From contig JACRCV010000087.1 in NCBI GenBank assembly GCA_016218825.1, positions 62,001 through 126,000 of the forward strand: a stretch of DNA of 64,000 nt, read 5' to 3'. The translations under genes were made by a program, and so were the position numbers. Every line of letters begins with the position of its first letter. Position 1 is the stretch's first letter. The DNA is from Deltaproteobacteria bacterium (lineage in GTDB: Bacteria; Myxococcota; XYA12-FULL-58-9). Of the stretch, positions 7,104 through 16,736 are shown piece by piece. Under the pieces are notes generated by a model. The model did no database searches. It saw only the letters and a program-made list of their open reading frames with translations, and was not told the origin of the DNA.

Positions 7104-7433
7104 ATGGCATCAGGTACAGAGCGCCGCCGCCCCCCGGGCCGCCGGGTCGCCACCCTCTTCGTGGGCATGGGGGACGCCAGCGTGCCGTTCGCGTGCACCC
7201 GCGATCTCAGCCTCTCCGGTCTGCTGCTCGAGACCGCGGTGCGGCCGCCGTTGCGCTCGCAGCTCGAGATCTCGCTGGCGTGGGGCGACGACGTGTTCTC
7301 CTGCCACGCGGCGGTCGTGCGCCACACCCCGCAGGGGATCGCCTTGGCGTTCTCCGATCCGGATGCCTATTTTCTTCAGGCGCTGCAAGAGATCATGGAC
7401 ACCGCACCGCCGGTGCCGGTGACCCCGCGCTGA
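7104..7433 (+). CDS. Small single-domain PilZ protein (first of a tandem pair)
   Basis: 109 residues, almost all a PilZ domain. The c-di-GMP-binding elements are present: an N-terminal R-P-P-G-R (RxxxR) and TRDLSLSGLLLET, which contains DxSxxG. The remainder alternates in the usual beta-barrel fashion (VFSCHAAVVRHTPQGIALAF). No output domain is attached, so it probably acts by binding a partner protein. A close relative lies 44 nt downstream on the same strand. The giant HEAT/repeat gene is convergent just beyond that, but no functional link can be shown. Confidence 0.88.
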   Translation: MASGTERRRPPGRRVATLFVGMGDASVPFACTRDLSLSGLLLETAVRPPLRSQLEISLAWGDDVFSCHAAVVRHTPQGIALAFSDPDAYFLQALQEIMDTAPPVPVTPR

Positions 7434-7477: not shown

Positions 7478-7804
7478 ATGGCGGACCTCGAAACCAATCG
7501 CGCCCCCCGCCATGACGTCACCATCTTCATCACCGCCGGCGATGACATGCTGCCTTTCGGCCGCACCCGCGACCTGAGCGTCAGCGGCGCGTTCATCGAG
7601 ACCACCGCCCGCCCGGACGTCGGCAGCACCCAGGAGTTCGCGATCGTGTGGGGCGAAGACACCCTCGTGTGCCCGGCCCGCATCGTCCGCCATGCCGACG
7701 ACGGCGTCGGGGTCGCGTTCCTCGAGCCCGAGGCGAGCTTCAAGGCGGCCGTCGAGGAGATCCTGCAGAGCGCCCCGGTGAAGCGCGTCACACCACGCCC
7801 GTAG
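7478..7804 (+). CDS. Small single-domain PilZ protein (second of a tandem pair)
   Basis: 108 residues, similar over its whole length to the preceding gene (TRDLSVSGAFIETTARP, CPARIVRHADDGVGVAF, LQSAPVKRVTPRP), so the two are tandem paralogues. DxSxxG is intact, but the N-terminal arginine motif is N-R-A-P-R-H, with two rather than three residues between the Arg. Ligand binding may therefore differ from its neighbour. Its stop is 18 nt from that of the convergent giant gene. Confidence 0.86.
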   Translation: MADLETNRAPRHDVTIFITAGDDMLPFGRTRDLSVSGAFIETTARPDVGSTQEFAIVWGEDTLVCPARIVRHADDGVGVAFLEPEASFKAAVEEILQSAPVKRVTPRP

Positions 7805-7822: not shown

Positions 7823-10800
7823 TCAGCGCAAGAACCCGGTGATCTGCAACAGGATCTTCGAGCCCTGCACCGGCGACAGCCCTTCGCGGTCACCGGCCGG
7901 CTCGACGACGACCCCCGGGAACCACAGGTCCACCTGCGGCAGCCACCCGAAGAGTCGCGTCGCGCTCGAGCCGGCGTCGGCCATCCCCGCGGCCTCCTCT
8001 GCCGGCTGCCAGTCGAAGAAGCTCGTCGCCACCGCGCCGGCCGCGAGCCCGGCGACGCTGCCGGCGGCGATGCCGAGCTTCGGACTCAGCCGGCTCTGCA
8101 CCAGATTCGACGCCGACAAGCCCGCGACCAGCCCCAACCCGCCGCCGACGCTCACCCACGCGAACTGCTTTGGCGGCATCTTCACCAGCTTGCTGATCGC
8201 CACCGAGGTCGCCACCAACGTCACGTCGGTCGCCACCGCCGTCGTCCCGACCCCGAGCGACACCACGCTGCGATCGAGGCTCCCCTCCTGACGCTCGTCG
8301 ATCGCCGCCGCGGTCCAGACCCCGATCCACACGCCCCAGGCGCTACCCGCGAGCAGCATCAAGACATCGGTGCCGCTCAAATGCACGTACGGCGCCAGAT
8401 AGCTGCCGGCGAGCGTGCCGGCCGCGGTCGCCGCCAGCATCGCGCCGGCGACCTGCTCGTCCTTGGCCTTCGCGAGGTAGGACAGGCCGGCTCCTTGGTA
8501 CAACCCGTAGGCCGCAGCCAGACCGCCGAGCACCGCGTCGCTCGCGGTGTAGCTGGTCCGCGGCGCCAGGTAGCCCACCGCGAGGGTGCCGGCGAAACCC
8601 ACGCCTTCCATCAGCGGCACCCACAGGTCGCCGCCCGGATCGAGCACCAGGCCGAGGCCGGCGCCGAGCACCGAGGAGGTCGTGGTCCCGAACGCGATCT
8701 CCGCCACGTCCGCGAGCCGGTAGTCGGTGACCTGCGACAGCACGCCGGCGCCGAGCGCCCCAACACCTGCACCGAGCAGGATCCCGGTCCCGGTCTGCGA
8801 GCCCGCCGGCTCGGCCTCCTGCCACATGCGCGGCGCGTAGGCGCCGAGCCAGGCTCCGTAGAGCGCGCCGTACGCCGTCAGCACCCGGTCGCCGCGATCG
8901 AAGCTCGTCTGGTCCGCAGTCAGCAGCCCGAGCGCCGCGAGGCCGAGCCCCGACGCTTCGATGAGCCCGAACGTCGACCGGGTGTCGAGCTCGAGCCAGG
9001 CGGCGGCCCCGAGCCCGACCGCGTCTCCGGCCGCGGTGACGAGCGTCAGCTCGGCGAGATCCTCGGCCCCGAGCTCCAGCCGCTCTGCGACGGCCATGCC
9101 ACCCAGAAGACCCAGCCCGGTGCCGGCCAAGAAGCCGCCCCAGGTGGCCTGCTCGGAGGCGTCGTCGTGGATGATGCCGCTCAAGAGCGTGCCGTGCAGG
9201 CCGCCGAACAGTCCGCTCATGCCGACGAGGATGACGTCGTTACGGCTGTACTCGGTGCGGCGGCCCAGCGTCAGGCCGCCGACGATGCCGGCGAGCCCGC
9301 CGGCCTCGAACAGGCCGGTCCGAAGCCCCGGGTCGAGCTGCAACAGGTAGCCGCCGCCGGTGCCGATCATGTTGCCGGCGCCCATCATCACCGAGGCCTC
9401 CGCGAGCAGATCGCCGCTCTCGTCGGTGAGCTGCGACAACACCGCCCCGGCGGTGACACCGACGCCGGCGCCGAGCAGCGCCCCGCCGGCCCGGCGCCGC
9501 GCCCGCTCCGACCCGGAGCGCGCCAACACGTCACCGAGCCACAGCCCGTGCCAGCTCCCCCAGCCGCTCGCCGCCGCCATCACGCCGGCGTCGGCCGCCT
9601 TGAAGTCGGTGAAGCGCGCCACCCCGGTGCCCAGCGCGAAGCCCGCGATCCCCGCCGCCTCCAGACTCCTCGTCGTCGCCACCCCATCGAGGTCGAGCAG
9701 CAACCCGAGGCCGGTGCCGATGGCCGATCCCACGCCGCTGTATGCCGTGACCTCGACGTTGTCGCTGACCGTCGGATGGAGAAGCTGACTGGCGCCGTAG
9801 CCGAGCAGCATCCCGGCGCCGGTCCCCGCGAGCGCCCCGCCCCGCTCCCGCCGCGCCCGCTCGACCCCGAGCGCCGCGGGCGCGAACCTGCCGAACCAGG
9901 CCCCGAGACCGGCGTCGGTGACGATCGTCGCCGCCTCGGCGACGCCGAGCTCAGCCTTCGGCATCACCAGGCCGGCCGCGAGGCTCCCGGAAACCGCCGC
10001 GAGCTGCATCGCCAGCGCCTGCTGCTGCGGCTTCCCCGGCACCTGCAGCACGCCGAGCCCCGACCCGACCAAGGTCGTCGCGGTCGACAGCCCGGCAGCC
10101 CCAAACGCGAAGCTCTTCGGCAGCTCCCACCACTGCGCCGCGGTCGCAAACGCCAGGGCGCCGAGCGCCGCGCCGCTCGTTGCGCCTCCGCCGCGCTGCG
10201 CCGCATCTGCGCCTCGGCCGTGGAGCGCCGTTGGCACGAGCCCCCCGACCCAGGCGCCGAGCCCGGCGCCGTAGGCCACCCACCACAGATCGTCCTCGGA
10301 GTACGCCGTCCGCGGCGCCGCCCACAGCCCCGCTCCCGTCCCCGCGATCCAACCGAGATCCTGCAGGCGATAGCGCGTGCGCGCGCTCTTGTGCACGCGC
10401 GCGCGACCGACACCCCAGAGCCCGGCGCTGAGGGTGGCCGAGGTGAGCAACACCTCCGGGAGATCCATCGGGTCGTAGTCGACGAGCTGGGACAGACCCA
10501 GGCCCGCGAGTCCGAACGCCCCCGCCGCCACCGACGCGCCCGCGGCCCCGGCCTCGAGGTCCGGGTCGCCCTCCCGGACCCAGTACGGCAGCCCCAAGCC
10601 CGCGACGGCGCCGAGCGTCGTCAGGGTGCTCACCAGGTAGAGGTCCGACGGCGTGAAGGTCGTGTGACCGGCGATCAATTCCCCCGCCCCGAGCCCGACG
10701 AGCCCCGACGCCCCGACCGCGACCGTGCGACCGCGCCGGTCGAGGGTGGAGAGCCCGGCGAGCCCCGTCCCGATGGCGGTGCCGTAGAGATCCCAGAGAC

Positions 10801-13800
10801 CGACCTCGGTCACGTCCGCCGCGTCCTTCGGCCCGAGATAGATCGCGAGCCGCGCCGCCGCCGCACCCGACGCCAGTCCCACGAGCGCGCCGCCGGTCTT
10901 CTCGTGAAGGGCGATCGGGTCGGTCGGCGCCCGCCAGGCCGCAGGGATCAGCGAGCCGTGAAACGCGCCGAACGCCGACGCCAGCGCCAGGTGATAACGG
11001 TCGGCGCCGCTGTACTCGGTGCGGCGCTCGGTCAACGTCGCGATGCCGTAGCCGAGCGCGGTCCCCGCCTGCATCAGCGCCACCGTCGTCCGCCGACCCT
11101 CGCCGTGCGAGACCGACGCCGGCAGCAACAGACCGAGGCCACTGCCGAACGCCATGCCGCCGAGAGCGCCGAGATCCACACGCAGCACCCGATACGGCTC
11201 GACGTCGGTGAACTGCGACACCGCGCCCGCAAACACCAGACCTAGCGCGCCACCCGCCATCGCGCCACCGGTCTGCTCCCCGACCGGCAGCTTGTCGTGC
11301 GCCGCCGTTCGATAGGCGGGGACGAAGCTGCCCAAGAAGGCGCCGAGCGAGCCGGTCGACAGTCCGAGCGCGATGTCGGCCGGCTCGTACCGCAGGCGTG
11401 GCGCGAGGAAGGCGCCCAACCCCACGGCGCCGATCGCCGCACCGGCCGAGAACATGTTCGAGAATTGGCCACCGCCGACCTCCGGCAACAGCAGCGAGAT
11501 GCCGGCCCCGCCGGTCCCCAACACCGTAGCGCCGGCGGCGGTCATCAACAGCTCGCCGCCGGAGAGCTCGACGAGCTGACTCGCCCCCAGCCCGGCATAC
11601 AACCCCAGTGTTCCCCCGACCAGGCTGCCGCCCCATTTCTTCTGCCGGCCGGCCGTCTCGTCCACCCCCGCGACGTTGACGTTCTCGGCGACCTGGGCCG
11701 GAACCCGCGCCCCGGTCAACGCGCCGCCCAGCGTCATCAAGGTGATCAGCCCGACGTCGGTAGCGCTGAAATCCAGACGCGGACCGATCCAGGTGAGGAC
11801 CCCGGCGCCAAGCAGGGTGCCGCCCTCGAGCAAGCCGTAGGTCGGTCGGCCGCGAAGCCTCAGATCGGACAGCCCGATGCCGGTCCCCAAGCCCGCACCG
11901 GAGAGCGCACCGAGCGTCGCCCACGCCACCTGCGCGCCGCCGAAGGTCGTCACCTGGCTGAGGACCAGGCCGCCCGCCCAGCCCACGGCCTGCCCGAGGC
12001 CGATGCCGGCGAGGGTGTCGCCGGGCTTGGCGTCCTCCTTGCGCACCAACGCCTTGGGCGCGAACGCCCCCAGCCAAGTCGCAAAGGCGATGCTGGTGCC
12101 GAAGCCGAAGAGCTGCTCGCCGTCGAGATGCAAGCGCGGGCTGAGCACCGCGAGCGGCGCCACCGCCGCCAGGCCACCGAGCGTGAAGACGTCCGCAGCT
12201 CCGGCGGTGCCCCCGCCCAGGCGCCCGAGGTAGGCGGCGCCGAGCGCCCCCACCCCGAGCGACGTCGCGGTGGCGTTGGTGAGCACGACGTCGGCAATCG
12301 AGAAGCGTGCCGGCCGCAGAGTCAGGGCCCCGACGCCGACGCCCAACAGCTCACCGCCGATCGCCGCCCAGAGCGGCCCGGTCTTCTCTCGCACCCCGAG
12401 CCCGGCGACGCGCGCCAGCGAGTAGCCGCCGGTGGTCCCCCACAGCCCCAACGTCGTGTAGTAGCCCGCCTCGCCCAGAGAGACGTCGGTGTTGAGCGTC
12501 AACAAGAACGAGGTGCTGGCCCCGAGCGCCGCGCCCCCCACCCCCAGCAGCACCTTGCGCTTGCTCTGTCCGGCCTCGGAGAGCTCCTCCGCGATCTGGG
12601 TCGACAACAGCAACAAAGCCGTGCCGAACGCGCTCGAGGTGAGCACCAGCGGGTAACGTCCCCACCCGTCCCATTCGGCCTGCAGGTCCGGGGCGAGGCG
12701 GTGCATGGCGTTCTTCGCCGCCGCCTTCAGCTCTCGGTCGTCGGTCTTTGCCGTCGCCTCGAGCAGCCCGAGATCATCGCGTGCGCCGCGCTCGCCGAGG
12801 AGCTCCACCGCCCGGAGTCGGAGCGCCCGCCTTGCGCCCGGATCGCTGACGACCTCGCGCAGGCCGTTCTCCGCGGCCGGCGGCGGCAGCGCCGCCAACG
12901 CCTCGAAGGCGGTCTCGTCGACCAGGCCGCCGTCGCCCGCCGTCGGTCCACGGTGGATCCACAGGACGTAGCGCGGCGCCAACGTCGGATCCGCGACCCG
13001 CCGCAGCCAGTGGATGGCCGCCTTTGCGATCCGCGGGTCTTGATCGTCGCCGAGCCGGGTCGCCACCGCGGCGACGACCTCAGGCTCGGCGCGCTCGCCG
13101 GTGGCGGCGAGCAGGTCGGTCAAGAGCGACACCTCGGCCTCGCTCTCGATCGCCTTGATGAGCGATCGCCGGCCGGGCTCCGCGGTCGCACGCGCCAACA
13201 CGGCGTACGCCGCCGCGCGTTGCTCGGTGCCGCCGTTGTCGACGACGTCGGCCAGGCGGTCCCACAGCTCGACCGGCGCGGGATCCGGAGCGGCGGCGCC
13301 GACCTCCCGAATGACGCTCGGATCCGCGGCGGCGGTGACGAGCGCCAACAGCGCCCTGGTCGTGGCGACGTCGTGAATGTCAGCGAGCCCCCGAACCACG
13401 GCCAGGCGCTCGGCCGCGGTCAGCGTCGGGTCTTGCAGGTGCGGCAACAGCACGCGCTCGCGAACCGCGGCGTCCTCGGCGACGACCGCTCGCAGCGCCT
13501 CGTCTCCGGGGAGGCGGGCGAGCGCGACCACCTTCGGCCAGAGCACCACCTCGCCTTGGCGCTCGCGCACCAGGAACACCAGGAGCTCGAGGGCATAGCC
13601 GTTCGCGGACTGCAGTCGGGGCAAGGTCGCCGCGGCCAGATCCTCCGTCGACTGGCGGCGCAGCGCCGCCGCGGCGGTCCGGAGAAGCTCCGGCGCGCTC
13701 TCCACCAGCATGTAGGCGGCGAGCGCGTCCGCGACCGCGGCGTCAGCGTGCACCGCGAGCGCCCGCAGGCCGCTCTGGCGAAACTCACGGTCCGGATCGG

Positions 13801-14578
13801 CGAGCAGCGCCATCAACGCCGGCACGTCGACCGGCATCGGCGCCGCCGCCATGTGCTCCAGCGCCCGCAGCCGCACCACGCGGGTCGAGGCGCGCGCCGC
13901 GAAGGCGACGAGCGGGCGTACCGCGGCCGGATCGGGGGCAGCAAAGAGCACGTCCGCGATCGCCCCCACGGACTCGGCCTTCGGCTCCGCCAACAGCCGC
14001 CGCGCCGCCAACGCCACGCTCCAGGTGTCCGGGACGCCAAGGAGCGTACCCGCGGCAGGTGGTCGCCCCATCCACACCGACAGGCGCTCGAGAACCGCGG
14101 GCTGCCGCATCTCGGCGAGCGCCGTCTGGATCCGGGCGACCGCCTCGGGGTCGGTGGTGGCGAGCAACCGCTGCCGCAGCGCCTTCTGGGCCTCGGGGGT
14201 GGGGAACTTGCCGAGCGCCGCGATCGCGGCGTGGCGGATCTCGGTCTGTGCGAGAGTCGCGGCCAGCCCCAAGGCCTCGAGGCGCGCCTGCAGATCGCCG
14301 GCGTCTTCAGGCCAGTCGAGGGCGCCGAGCGCTTCGGCCGCCTTCGCCCGCAAGGTCACCGCCCCTGGCCGTTGCATCAAGGCCAAGAGCGGCGCCTCGT
14401 ACAGCAGGCTCTTCGACGCCTTCGCCGCCTCGATTCCGGCGACCACGACCGCGTCCGTTGGGCTCGCCAAGAGACAAAGCACCTCGATCGCGCCGCGCTC
14501 GTCGGCTCCAGTCGCCGCCGCACCGGCCGGCATCGGCGCCGCGAGCAGACCGACCCACAAGGAGACCAGGACCCCCAT
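7823..14578 (-). CDS. Giant exported protein: HEAT repeats plus about 24 Gly-rich hydrophobic half-repeats (function unknown)
   Basis: 2251 residues from the ATG at 14578, which follows GGAAGGAG at good spacing; the frame is open a further 30 codons upstream without a ribosome site. Residues 1-22 form a signal peptide or first membrane segment ending in PAGAAA. Residues about 30-640 are Ala/Leu-rich HEAT-like helical repeats (for example TEIRHAAIAALGKFPTPEAQ, LRAKAAEALGAL). From about 650 to 2080 the protein is a long array of Gly/Ala-rich hydrophobic helices separated by short loops with the signature [YFL]-x3-D, as in TEYSGADRY, TTFTPSDLY, TAYSEDDLW, TEYSRNDVI, TSFDRGDRV and TSYTASDAV. These recur at about 116-127 residues, with a related half-unit (SQLVDYDPMDL, SQVTDYRLAD) between, giving a basic unit near 59 residues. 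The last 170 residues are less regular. I do not recognise a described family for the array. A membrane scaffold is inferred from composition only. Confidence 0.85.
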   Translation of the reverse strand: MGVLVSLWVGLLAAPMPAGAAATGADERGAIEVLCLLASPTDAVVVAGIEAAKASKSLLYEAPLLALMQRPGAVTLRAKAAEALGALDWPEDAGDLQARLEALGLAATLAQTEIRHAAIAALGKFPTPEAQKALRQRLLATTDPEAVARIQTALAEMRQPAVLERLSVWMGRPPAAGTLLGVPDTWSVALAARRLLAEPKAESVGAIADVLFAAPDPAAVRPLVAFAARASTRVVRLRALEHMAAAPMPVDVPALMALLADPDREFRQSGLRALAVHADAAVADALAAYMLVESAPELLRTAAAALRRQSTEDLAAATLPRLQSANGYALELLVFLVRERQGEVVLWPKVVALARLPGDEALRAVVAEDAAVRERVLLPHLQDPTLTAAERLAVVRGLADIHDVATTRALLALVTAAADPSVIREVGAAAPDPAPVELWDRLADVVDNGGTEQRAAAYAVLARATAEPGRRSLIKAIESEAEVSLLTDLLAATGERAEPEVVAAVATRLGDDQDPRIAKAAIHWLRRVADPTLAPRYVLWIHRGPTAGDGGLVDETAFEALAALPPPAAENGLREVVSDPGARRALRLRAVELLGERGARDDLGLLEATAKTDDRELKAAAKNAMHRLAPDLQAEWDGWGRYPLVLTSSAFGTALLLLSTQIAEELSEAGQSKRKVLLGVGGAALGASTSFLLTLNTDVSLGEAGYYTTLGLWGTTGGYSLARVAGLGVREKTGPLWAAIGGELLGVGVGALTLRPARFSIADVVLTNATATSLGVGALGAAYLGRLGGGTAGAADVFTLGGLAAVAPLAVLSPRLHLDGEQLFGFGTSIAFATWLGAFAPKALVRKEDAKPGDTLAGIGLGQAVGWAGGLVLSQVTTFGGAQVAWATLGALSGAGLGTGIGLSDLRLRGRPTYGLLEGGTLLGAGVLTWIGPRLDFSATDVGLITLMTLGGALTGARVPAQVAENVNVAGVDETAGRQKKWGGSLVGGTLGLYAGLGASQLVELSGGELLMTAAGATVLGTGGAGISLLLPEVGGGQFSNMFSAGAAIGAVGLGAFLAPRLRYEPADIALGLSTGSLGAFLGSFVPAYRTAAHDKLPVGEQTGGAMAGGALGLVFAGAVSQFTDVEPYRVLRVDLGALGGMAFGSGLGLLLPASVSHGEGRRTTVALMQAGTALGYGIATLTERRTEYSGADRYHLALASAFGAFHGSLIPAAWRAPTDPIALHEKTGGALVGLASGAAAARLAIYLGPKDAADVTEVGLWDLYGTAIGTGLAGLSTLDRRGRTVAVGASGLVGLGAGELIAGHTTFTPSDLYLVSTLTTLGAVAGLGLPYWVREGDPDLEAGAAGASVAAGAFGLAGLGLSQLVDYDPMDLPEVLLTSATLSAGLWGVGRARVHKSARTRYRLQDLGWIAGTGAGLWAAPRTAYSEDDLWWVAYGAGLGAWVGGLVPTALHGRGADAAQRGGGATSGAALGALAFATAAQWWELPKSFAFGAAGLSTATTLVGSGLGVLQVPGKPQQQALAMQLAAVSGSLAAGLVMPKAELGVAEAATIVTDAGLGAWFGRFAPAALGVERARRERGGALAGTGAGMLLGYGASQLLHPTVSDNVEVTAYSGVGSAIGTGLGLLLDLDGVATTRSLEAAGIAGFALGTGVARFTDFKAADAGVMAAASGWGSWHGLWLGDVLARSGSERARRRAGGALLGAGVGVTAGAVLSQLTDESGDLLAEASVMMGAGNMIGTGGGYLLQLDPGLRTGLFEAGGLAGIVGGLTLGRRTEYSRNDVILVGMSGLFGGLHGTLLSGIIHDDASEQATWGGFLAGTGLGLLGGMAVAERLELGAEDLAELTLVTAAGDAVGLGAAAWLELDTRSTFGLIEASGLGLAALGLLTADQTSFDRGDRVLTAYGALYGAWLGAYAPRMWQEAEPAGSQTGTGILLGAGVGALGAGVLSQVTDYRLADVAEIAFGTTTSSVLGAGLGLVLDPGGDLWVPLMEGVGFAGTLAVGYLAPRTSYTASDAVLGGLAAAYGLYQGAGLSYLAKAKDEQVAGAMLAATAAGTLAGSYLAPYVHLSGTDVLMLLAGSAWGVWIGVWTAAAIDERQEGSLDRSVVSLGVGTTAVATDVTLVATSVAISKLVKMPPKQFAWVSVGGGLGLVAGLSASNLVQSRLSPKLGIAAGSVAGLAAGAVATSFFDWQPAEEAAGMADAGSSATRLFGWLPQVDLWFPGVVVEPAGDREGLSPVQGSKILLQITGFLR
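8340..12500 (-). repeat. Tandem coding repeat, period about 350-380 bp
   Basis: Within the giant gene, the codons for the [YFL]-x3-D loop occur near 12480, 12300, 12120, 11765, 11385, 11005, 10650, 10300, 9945, 9600, 9250, 8900, 8550 and 8370. The internal spacing is about 347-380 bp, and steps of about 180 bp at both ends show that the true unit is half that length. Protein similarity between units is moderate, so the array is old rather than a recent DNA expansion. Positions were read by eye and are good to about 15 bp. Confidence 0.8.
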
Positions 14579-14696
14579 GACCGCTCCTTCCAGCGCGACC
14601 GGCGTCGGACGCGAAAGACGGTGGCCTGCGTACCAGGCCGGCGACCGCGGCGATGTGATCCCGGTCACAACCTGGAGAGGACGTTCGACGGTCGAG

Positions 14697-16736
14697 TTAC
14701 CACACCGGCTCGAGCAACCACCGATCGGCGCGCTCGTCGTACATCGCGGTTCGCAGATCGATCTGTTGACCGACGGCGAGGGTCTTGCCGTCGACGGTGG
14801 CGAAGGCGAGCCCAGAGGCGTCGGCGGTCAGCTGACACCCGAGCCGGGACGCGAGCTCCTCGGGGTAGAGCTTGACCTCGATCGGCGGTTCGTCGAGCTG
14901 CACGTAGATCTTGCCGGCCTTCGCCCCCAAGATCGTGCCGCGCCGCAGCGGCCGCGCCGCGAACGGGATCGATGCGTCCATCGCCAGCAGATCGTCGATG
15001 GCGATCAGGTTGGCCTGCCGGGTGATGGCGCTTTGCTTCTTGTGCGCGCGGTTGCCGGCATCGATGATCTGCCGCCGCAGCTCGTCGTCGTCGAAGACCG
15101 GCGTCTCGTGCCCCCGCCCCTCAAGGAGCTCGATCGCCTCTTTGTGGGTGAAGATCCCGACCATCTCCCGCATCGGCGACGAGAAGCGGGCGTAGGCCTC
15201 AGCGCCGATGCCGAAGTGAGGCGCCGGCTCCTCGCCGAACCGCGCCCCGACGTTGCACATCATCGCCTGGCGCTCGATCACCCGCACCAGGCGCAAGTCG
15301 GGCGCCTCGTGGTGCAGCCGGTCGAGGTAGGCCGCCAGGCTCTCGCGCCGCTCTCGATGCCATCCCCAGAGCTCGGGGTCCAGGTGATGCAGCTCCACCA
15401 TGCGGTTCACCAGACCCTGGAGCTCGCCGAGGCGCGCCGCGGGCGGCGCCTCGTGCCCGCGAAAGATGGCCTGGACGTTCTTGAGCCCGAGGTTCTTGCC
15501 GCCGTCGCCCTTCAGGAACAGCGCTCCGAGGATGTTGCACAACAGCGAGATCTGCTCGTTGTACTTCTCGACGTCGTTGCGAGCGTCGTCGAGCAGGCTG
15601 AAGTGGGTCTCACCGTGCTCCAAGTCGACCCTGACGTCGCGGCGCTGGAAGGCGATGACGTCGCGCTCCTTGGCGGCGGCGATCCGCAGCTTACCGACCG
15701 TGGCCAAGAGATCCAGGGTCTCGGTGTAGGCCTGACCGGCGCACGGGCTCCCCACCGGCCCATCGTAGTACCGCTGCACGCCGTTGTAGGTCAGCTTCTT
15801 CTGGCTGCGAATGCGCGCCCGCGTGAGGGTCGCGCCGGTGACGCCGCCCTCTTTGTCGAGCGACATCTTCATCACCAGGGCGCGGCGATCTTGACCCTCG
15901 TTGAGCGAGATCAGGCCCTCGGACAGCTCGCGCGGCAGCATCGGCACCGACAGCCCCGGCAAGTAGTAGCTCGCGCCGCGGCGGAGCGCCTCGGCGAACA
16001 ACGCCGTCCCCGGCTTGACGAAGTGGGACGCATCGGCGAGCGCGTAGGACACGTCATAGCCGCCGTCGGCACGGCGGCAGATGTACATCGCCTGGTCGAG
16101 ATCGCGGGAACCGTCGTTGTCGATGGTCACGAAGGGCAGGTGGGTCAGATCCTTGAGGCTGGGATCGTCGATCCCGGGGCTGCGGCGGATCGCTGCGACC
16201 TCGGCCATCACCGCCGGCGGAAAGGTCGGATCGAGGCCGTTCGCCACCGCGATCGCGTGCACCGCGGCCGCGGCGGTGTCGCGCAGGGCGATCGGCGCGC
16301 CGACGACCGTCGCGACCTGACGCCCGCCGACGTCCTTCACCGTCACCTCGACGATCGTGCCGCGCGCCGGTGTCGCGGCGCCGTCGCAAAGCGGCACCCG
16401 AACCGCGGGCTCCTTCGCCAACAGATCGCGCACCACCGCCCGGCCGCCGACGAGCTCGACCTTGCCCACGAAGCGCGGCCGCACGCTCGTCGCCCGCCCG
16501 GTCAGGATCCGCGCGCTGTCCGACGCACCGCCGACGTCATCCACCGCGCGGCTGCGCTTGCCAGGCGGCCTCGGGACGACGAGCGGCGACGCGGTGTCAA
16601 CAACGTCGGTGACACCCTTCACCTTGGCCGGCGACTTGTCGACGTCCAGGGGCGGAACCGGCGCGCTGTGGGTGTCGGCCGCCGGCTTCGGGACTGCGGG
16701 TGGCAGCGGTCGCAACTCGAGAGTGTTATTGGCCAT
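14697..16736 (-). CDS. RNB-domain 3'-5' exoribonuclease (RNase II/R family)
   Basis: About 679 residues from the ATG at 16736 (MANNTLELRPLPP). The frame is open upstream, but that would run into the divergent gene's start. After a Pro-rich leader, an OB-like region (VELVGGRAVVRDLLAK, GTIVEVTVKDVGG) precedes the RNB catalytic core, whose metal-binding motif is DNDGSRDLDQAMYI (about residue 207). Further RNB hallmarks are YALADASHFV, LPRELSEGLISLNEGQDRRA and FSSPMREMVG. A C-terminal S1-like strand region (RRGTILGAKAGKIYVQLDEP) ends the protein. It is expected to degrade RNA processively from the 3' end. It resembles RNase R in order but is shorter than typical RNase R, so no symbol is given. 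It is divergent from 16819, with 82 nt between starts. Confidence 0.87.
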   Translation of the reverse strand: MANNTLELRPLPPAVPKPAADTHSAPVPPLDVDKSPAKVKGVTDVVDTASPLVVPRPPGKRSRAVDDVGGASDSARILTGRATSVRPRFVGKVELVGGRAVVRDLLAKEPAVRVPLCDGAATPARGTIVEVTVKDVGGRQVATVVGAPIALRDTAAAAVHAIAVANGLDPTFPPAVMAEVAAIRRSPGIDDPSLKDLTHLPFVTIDNDGSRDLDQAMYICRRADGGYDVSYALADASHFVKPGTALFAEALRRGASYYLPGLSVPMLPRELSEGLISLNEGQDRRALVMKMSLDKEGGVTGATLTRARIRSQKKLTYNGVQRYYDGPVGSPCAGQAYTETLDLLATVGKLRIAAAKERDVIAFQRRDVRVDLEHGETHFSLLDDARNDVEKYNEQISLLCNILGALFLKGDGGKNLGLKNVQAIFRGHEAPPAARLGELQGLVNRMVELHHLDPELWGWHRERRESLAAYLDRLHHEAPDLRLVRVIERQAMMCNVGARFGEEPAPHFGIGAEAYARFSSPMREMVGIFTHKEAIELLEGRGHETPVFDDDELRRQIIDAGNRAHKKQSAITRQANLIAIDDLLAMDASIPFAARPLRRGTILGAKAGKIYVQLDEPPIEVKLYPEELASRLGCQLTADASGLAFATVDGKTLAVGQQIDLRTAMYDERADRWLLEPVW

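Follow-up and report, generated by a model that had tools for sequence, protein, structure and literature searches.

An exported protein of 2251 residues, encoded on the minus strand of the window (the whole stretch of 64,000 nucleotides that was analysed), carries a long array of glycine-zipper helices built on a repeating unit of 117 residues, and its C-terminal module is homologous to the eight-helix domain of shorter proteins from the same phylum. Along the chain, a signal peptide is followed by HEAT repeats up to residue ~628, by the Gly/Ala/Leu array and by a short conserved tail. At a confidence just short of even, we read it as an integral envelope protein whose tandem zipper hairpins lie in a slab, most likely in the outer membrane, with a structural role. 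The features of the gene are listed below, with their basis in brackets.

7823-14578, minus strand: whole coding sequence, 2251 residues (open reading frame and translation; Shine-Dalgarno sequence before the ATG)
14584-14591, minus strand: Shine-Dalgarno sequence GGAAGGAG, 5 nt before ATG 14578 (sequence)
14519-14578, minus strand: signal peptide MGVLVSLWVGLLAAPMPAGA, residues 1-20 (sequence; cleavage site estimated by eye)
12695-14488, minus strand: HEAT-repeat solenoid, residues ~31-628 (Pfam HEAT_2, model, Foldseek)
8021-12655, minus strand: array of 52 glycine-zipper helices, residues ~642-2186 (autocorrelation, unit HMM, unit profile, AlphaFold2)
8012-8701, minus strand: C-terminal module, residues ~1960-2189 (35-protein alignment; long-form alignment; profile scores against shuffled controls)
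7826-8011, minus strand: C-terminal tail, residues 2190-2251, predicted beta-hairpin (35-protein alignment; low-confidence strands in the AlphaFold2 model)

The frame of 2251 codons described in the sequence-only reading is indeed open from 7823 to 14578 on the minus strand. With GGAAGGAG placed 5 nt ahead of it, the ATG at 14578 is preferred over an in-frame upstream GTG at 14668. The next gene upstream, for an RNB-domain exonuclease on the same strand, ends 118 bases away; two tandem PilZ-domain genes (window 7104-7433 and 7478-7804, plus strand) are convergent with the giant gene. None of the neighbours was found to hint at a function. The DNA of the stretch has about 74% G+C, and long Arg-rich frames run antisense to the giant gene on the plus strand (8381-11245 and 11297-14875); they are taken as by-products of G+C-rich coding.

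HEAT repeats had been proposed for the N-terminus, and HEAT_2 (PF13646) matches there with E 1.4e-11 and 45 bits, above the Pfam cut-off of 27.7, which makes the protein a member of the HEAT group; the same family is above cut-off in all 7 relatives scanned, with up to 108 bits. Foldseek relates this half to alphaRep/HEAT structures with a probability of 1.00, and an AlphaFold2 model covering residues 420-628 shows short HEAT-like helices to ~628, followed by helices of ~20-29 residues. The likeness to HEAT-repeat proteins and alphaRep concerns the N-terminal solenoid and does not explain the array. Relatives also start with signal peptides and one of them only, from genome G009, has a lipobox (LSAC, with Thr at +2). 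Cleavage of the signal would leave the HEAT domain outside the cytoplasm, in line with the earlier proposal.

Residues 641-2200 contain 18% Gly, 17% Ala, 15% Leu and no cysteine. Autocorrelation of this region gives peaks at lags 118 (z 5.5), 57 (z 5.2), 234 (z 4.8), 351 (z 6.1) and 32 (z 6.2), the highest z at any lag in 100 shuffles being 4.9; the periods are 57, 117-118, 234-237 and 351 residues. The periodicity of about 59 residues postulated from the letters is therefore real, with lags 57 and 118 above the shuffles, and the recurring Y/F/L-x3-D loop is spaced as claimed, the [YF]xxxD motifs following each other at 127, 125, 119, 60 ... 118, 116, 60 and 57 residues. The repeating unit consists of four helices of ~25 residues, each with an 18-19-residue stretch nearly devoid of charge and a GxxxG zipper. 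In a profile of 82 units the four uncharged spans fall near columns 9-27, 43-60, 73-91 and 99-116, with glycines four apart and a total of 44 R/K and 78 D/E per 5642 span residues. G-x3-G occurs 81 times in the giant protein, while local shuffles give an expectation of 47.8 (z 5.8), as presumed when glycine-zipper packing was proposed, and it is also enriched in two relatives (z 8.2 and 9.6). The protein thus belongs to the loose glycine-zipper kind, defined by GxxxG enrichment in uncharged, predicted-helical spans.

An HMM built from ten 117-residue units of the giant protein itself recognises 12 stretches in it; in 21 related proteins or pieces of them it picks out 2-12 apiece, and it matches single units of relatives at E down to 2e-29. 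The array is composed of a four-helix unit, a half unit, eleven units of ~117 residues and a further half unit. AlphaFold2 models of residues 642-1058 and 1774-2186 contain 14 helices each; adding 24 for the six units between them, where helices in residues 1061-1772 are inferred from the unit HMM, brings the total to 52, i.e. 26 hairpins. In the second model the helices measure ~20-29 residues and pLDDT is mostly 75-91 in the first ~240 residues. The two models are based on 12-13 sequences each and have pTM of 0.57 and 0.43, so they leave the packing of the hairpins unfixed. They agree with two helices per half-unit of ~59 residues; the array of half-units imagined at first sight holds, with about 26 hairpins in place of about 24 half-units, and it stops short of the C-terminus, where the final ~62 residues form a conserved tail of their own.

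The turns of the hairpins define two faces. On face A, turns 4-1 and 2-3 are short, conserved ([YF]SxxD; SQFVDxSPxD) and acidic, with 93 R+K and 325 D+E per 1479 residues; on face B, loops 1-2 and 3-4 are longer, variable and richer in Arg/Lys, with 253 R+K and 332 D+E per 1959. Helix count along the chain places both the HEAT domain and the C-terminal tail on face A. The spans have a median Kyte-Doolittle hydropathy of 1.34. On a rough scale, simplified from the published biological one and used for comparison only, the insertion cost of the giant's array helices has a median of 2.97, with none below 1.5; in all members tested the array helices are weakly hydrophobic (medians 1.8-3.0, none below 0), and three polytopic proteins of the window have medians of 0.6-1.8 and several values below 0.

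The homology between the C-terminal module and the short forms holds in both directions: the short-form model scores 33 bits on the giant protein (controls <=5) and a C-terminal model from the long forms scores 38-54 bits on the short ones (controls <=6). Among 35 aligned modules P2227 is invariant (35/35), G2177 and G2149 are kept in 97%, G2233 in 94% and W2081 in 85%. D2118 (window 8225-8227), an aspartate midway along a predicted membrane helix, is present in 62% of the 35 members and in every one of the seven aligned long forms. The tail is outer-membrane-protein-like, ending with Phe in 20 of 34 members, often as GRF, and with Trp in one; short forms mostly end in Phe, and the giant protein itself in FLR. 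Such endings prompted a beta-barrel reading of the Gly-rich array, which was ruled out by the helical models, the GxxxG spacing and the scarcity of polar residues; no beta-strand barrel domain appears, the modelled parts of the array being helical throughout.

A search across the phylum, suggested by the sequence-only reading, recovered the same layout, at lengths of 707-2263 residues, in other genomes, with no conserved neighbour pointing to a function. It is present in G001, G002, G003, G008, G009, G029 and G030. Smaller HEAT versions of roughly 700-920 residues occur in G090, G091, G183 and G189, and G090 also has one of 1890. A second giant copy is present in the organism's own genome, cut by contig ends: L026 (G000:C12:1-4495) comprises the N-terminal 1498 residues and L025 (G000:C17:27943-31576) the C-terminal 1211. 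They are possibly one gene of >2700 residues; no overlap joining the ends of C12 and C17 was found. In G030 (C577) the giant member L031 is split by an in-frame TAG near 9267, due to an assembly error or a pseudogene.

The short form has about 320-450 residues: a signal peptide is followed in most cases by a TPR-like stretch, then by the glycine-zipper helices, about eight in number, and by the same tail; against solved structures its profile reveals a resemblance of the TPR part to YbgF/CpoB. Its model matches 73 of 195 genomes of the phylum, in some cases through the giants themselves, and 64 of the 149 good genomes; the matched genomes include most members of a family with genome sizes of 9-13 Mb, presumably Myxococcaceae. 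Short forms are mostly found in one copy per genome. With the unit, C-terminal and short-form profiles, relatives score far above copies of them that were reversed or shuffled (fully or locally), and above three further membrane proteins from the window. A few pairs are weak: L072 reaches only 5 bits with the unit model, yet 95 with the C-terminal one; the short-form model misses L034, L026 and L073, which are divergent or without the C-terminal part. A VIT/VWA-domain gene is found close to the short form in several Myxococcus-like genomes (in L093, 4512-7130 and 8035-9144). In three closely related genomes (L076, L077, L097) it adjoins an aminopeptidase-P-like gene and one for a protein of 1211-1215 residues (names given by eye).

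Units inside the giant protein share 25-50% identity. Eight successive units of the G002 protein match those of the giant in order (38-64%); in G001, of the same genus, this holds for the first four only, the later ones being interspersed with extra units. These orders suggest that the units are old and mostly fixed in place, and that they can be added or removed singly or several together. The short form is likely the ancestral state.

No family of Pfam, NCBIfam or PHROGs matches the array at cut-off, and Foldseek against the PDB and viral models gives nothing for it at E<=0.001; hence neither a described family nor a known barrel or fold, the outcome that the sequence-only reading had named as refuting it, emerged from these searches. 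When solved structures were searched by sequence, with the whole giant protein and with the profiles of the repeat and of the short form as queries, only a HEAT-like chain, TPR chains or chance matches came back, and no description of such a protein was found in the open literature (subscription journals lay outside the search). We file the array family as undescribed and as an extreme new form of glycine-zipper membrane proteins. Gly-zipper_YMGG (PF13441) and the YiaD/OmpA lipoproteins (NF053611) share GxxxG-rich exported helices with it, and the best weak matches in single members are E 0.0077 for PF13441 and E 0.02 for NF053611. However, these families lack a 117-residue four-helix period and the giant protein lacks an OmpA domain; it reaches 11.9 bits with NF053611 (cut-off 175), its array matches neither PF13441 nor other Pfam families, and PF05433 (17-kDa antigen) has no match at the gene.

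The Tim17/Tim22/Tim23 family (PF02466) resembles the unit in having four membrane helices in ~110 residues and many glycine zippers, and is reported as exclusive to eukaryotes (PMC5072337). Its profile has no match at the giant gene; the sole match in the genome, outside the window, is in another frame, of 524 residues (G000:C66:1199-1339; E 0.0022, 20.7 bits, below the cut-off of 32.7). The membrane part of SlyB is a helical hairpin with a glycine zipper. The likeness resides in this exported hairpin part. The transmembrane complexes of SlyB in the outer membrane are ring-shaped (PMC13067283). SlyB itself is a small lipoprotein assembling from many copies, whereas the giant protein joins 26 hairpins covalently behind a HEAT domain.

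Embedding in a membrane is the likely reading since the spans are without charge on every face, and the many crossings first suggested for the array are thus probable. The outer membrane is favoured by the weak hydrophobicity of the helices, the lipobox of one relative and the outer-membrane-like tails, and the YbgF/CpoB-like TPR part of the short forms was counted on the same side. The FLR end of the giant protein in place of Phe, the single lipobox relative and the lack of a function-pointing neighbour count against this reading, as does the charge bias: with HEAT outside, it is no less compatible with the inner membrane. The initial interpretation as a whole is partly supported: it missed the four-helix unit of 117 residues, the eight-helix relatives with a TPR-like front, the tail, and the weak hydrophobicity, in view of which the outer membrane is no less likely than the inner one.

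An inner-membrane polytopic protein, with cleaved signal, periplasmic HEAT domain and 52 transmembrane helices in blade-like four-helix units, acting as transporter, channel or mechanosensor, is possible though doubtful. The loops of face B would lie in the cytoplasm, face A and the tail in the periplasm, and this satisfies the positive-inside rule, face B being twice as rich in Arg/Lys as face A, where HEAT is located. Retention of D2118 inside a helix by 62% of the 35 members agrees with it, and so does the blade of Piezo, a tandem array of nine repeats of four membrane helices (PMC10275567). No chain with likeness to Piezo in sequence or fold is among the matches listed. To our knowledge, Piezo has no HEAT domain and no signal peptide. 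The uniformly weak hydrophobicity of the helices, the lipobox of one relative, the Phe-ended tails, the exported N-termini throughout and the failure of Foldseek to match any channel or transporter at E<=0.001 argue against this location.

A soluble or secreted alpha-solenoid, in which glycine would permit unusually tight helix packing, could account for weakly hydrophobic helices following directly on the HEAT solenoid and continuing it; it is unlikely, since soluble solenoid helices are amphipathic, whereas here spans of 18-19 columns are nearly without charge on any face, with the median hydropathy reported above. Very improbable is a cell-surface aggregate or contact toxin: the Cdz bacteriocins of Caulobacter are likewise exported glycine-zipper proteins (PMC5380434), but have only 84-86 residues, and their genes come together with an immunity gene and those of a type I secretion system, while the giant protein has a Sec-type signal, its family has a HEAT or TPR front, no Cdz-type neighbours occur in the window, and short forms are mostly single in each genome across a whole family. 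Low-complexity drift, composition without architecture, would suit the Gly, Ala and Leu content in such G+C-rich DNA and is already refuted by the controls and by collinearity, as most relatives score tens to hundreds of bits, shuffled or reversed copies <=6 (C-terminal and short-form models) or <=14.6 (unit model), and eight units are collinear with those of G002.

If the giant is indeed an integral envelope protein of the outer membrane, the Sec-type signal would export it and the HEAT solenoid would end in the periplasm. The eleven 117-residue units and the partial ones would then give 26 antiparallel hairpins within the membrane, held together by GxxxG zippers in a long helical slab or raft; the HEAT domain and the tail would emerge on face A, which in the outer membrane would look towards the periplasm, and may dock partners. 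Such a slab may stiffen or partition a lipid patch, in the way of SlyB rings in the outer membrane (PMC13067283). By analogy, its most likely function would be to organise lipid or partner proteins in a SlyB-like but covalent manner.

Integral outer-membrane proteins are nearly all beta-barrels, and helical ones are few. We regard as conceivable, with clear reserve, a new class in which a single chain crosses or lines the outer membrane with 52 helices in hairpins, is related to the eight-helix form by gain of 117-residue units and is sorted through a beta-signal-like tail even though no barrel is present. The family presents a series of about 8 to 52 zipper helices, with unit number differing between close species; if the reading is true, this would be a natural series in which to ask how helices of low hydrophobicity get through the inner membrane and then assemble on its far side. 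The family further provides a definable gene, absent from the family libraries and usually in one copy in large genomes, presumably those of Myxococcaceae, and its giant member may show how bacteria build very large helical envelope assemblies.
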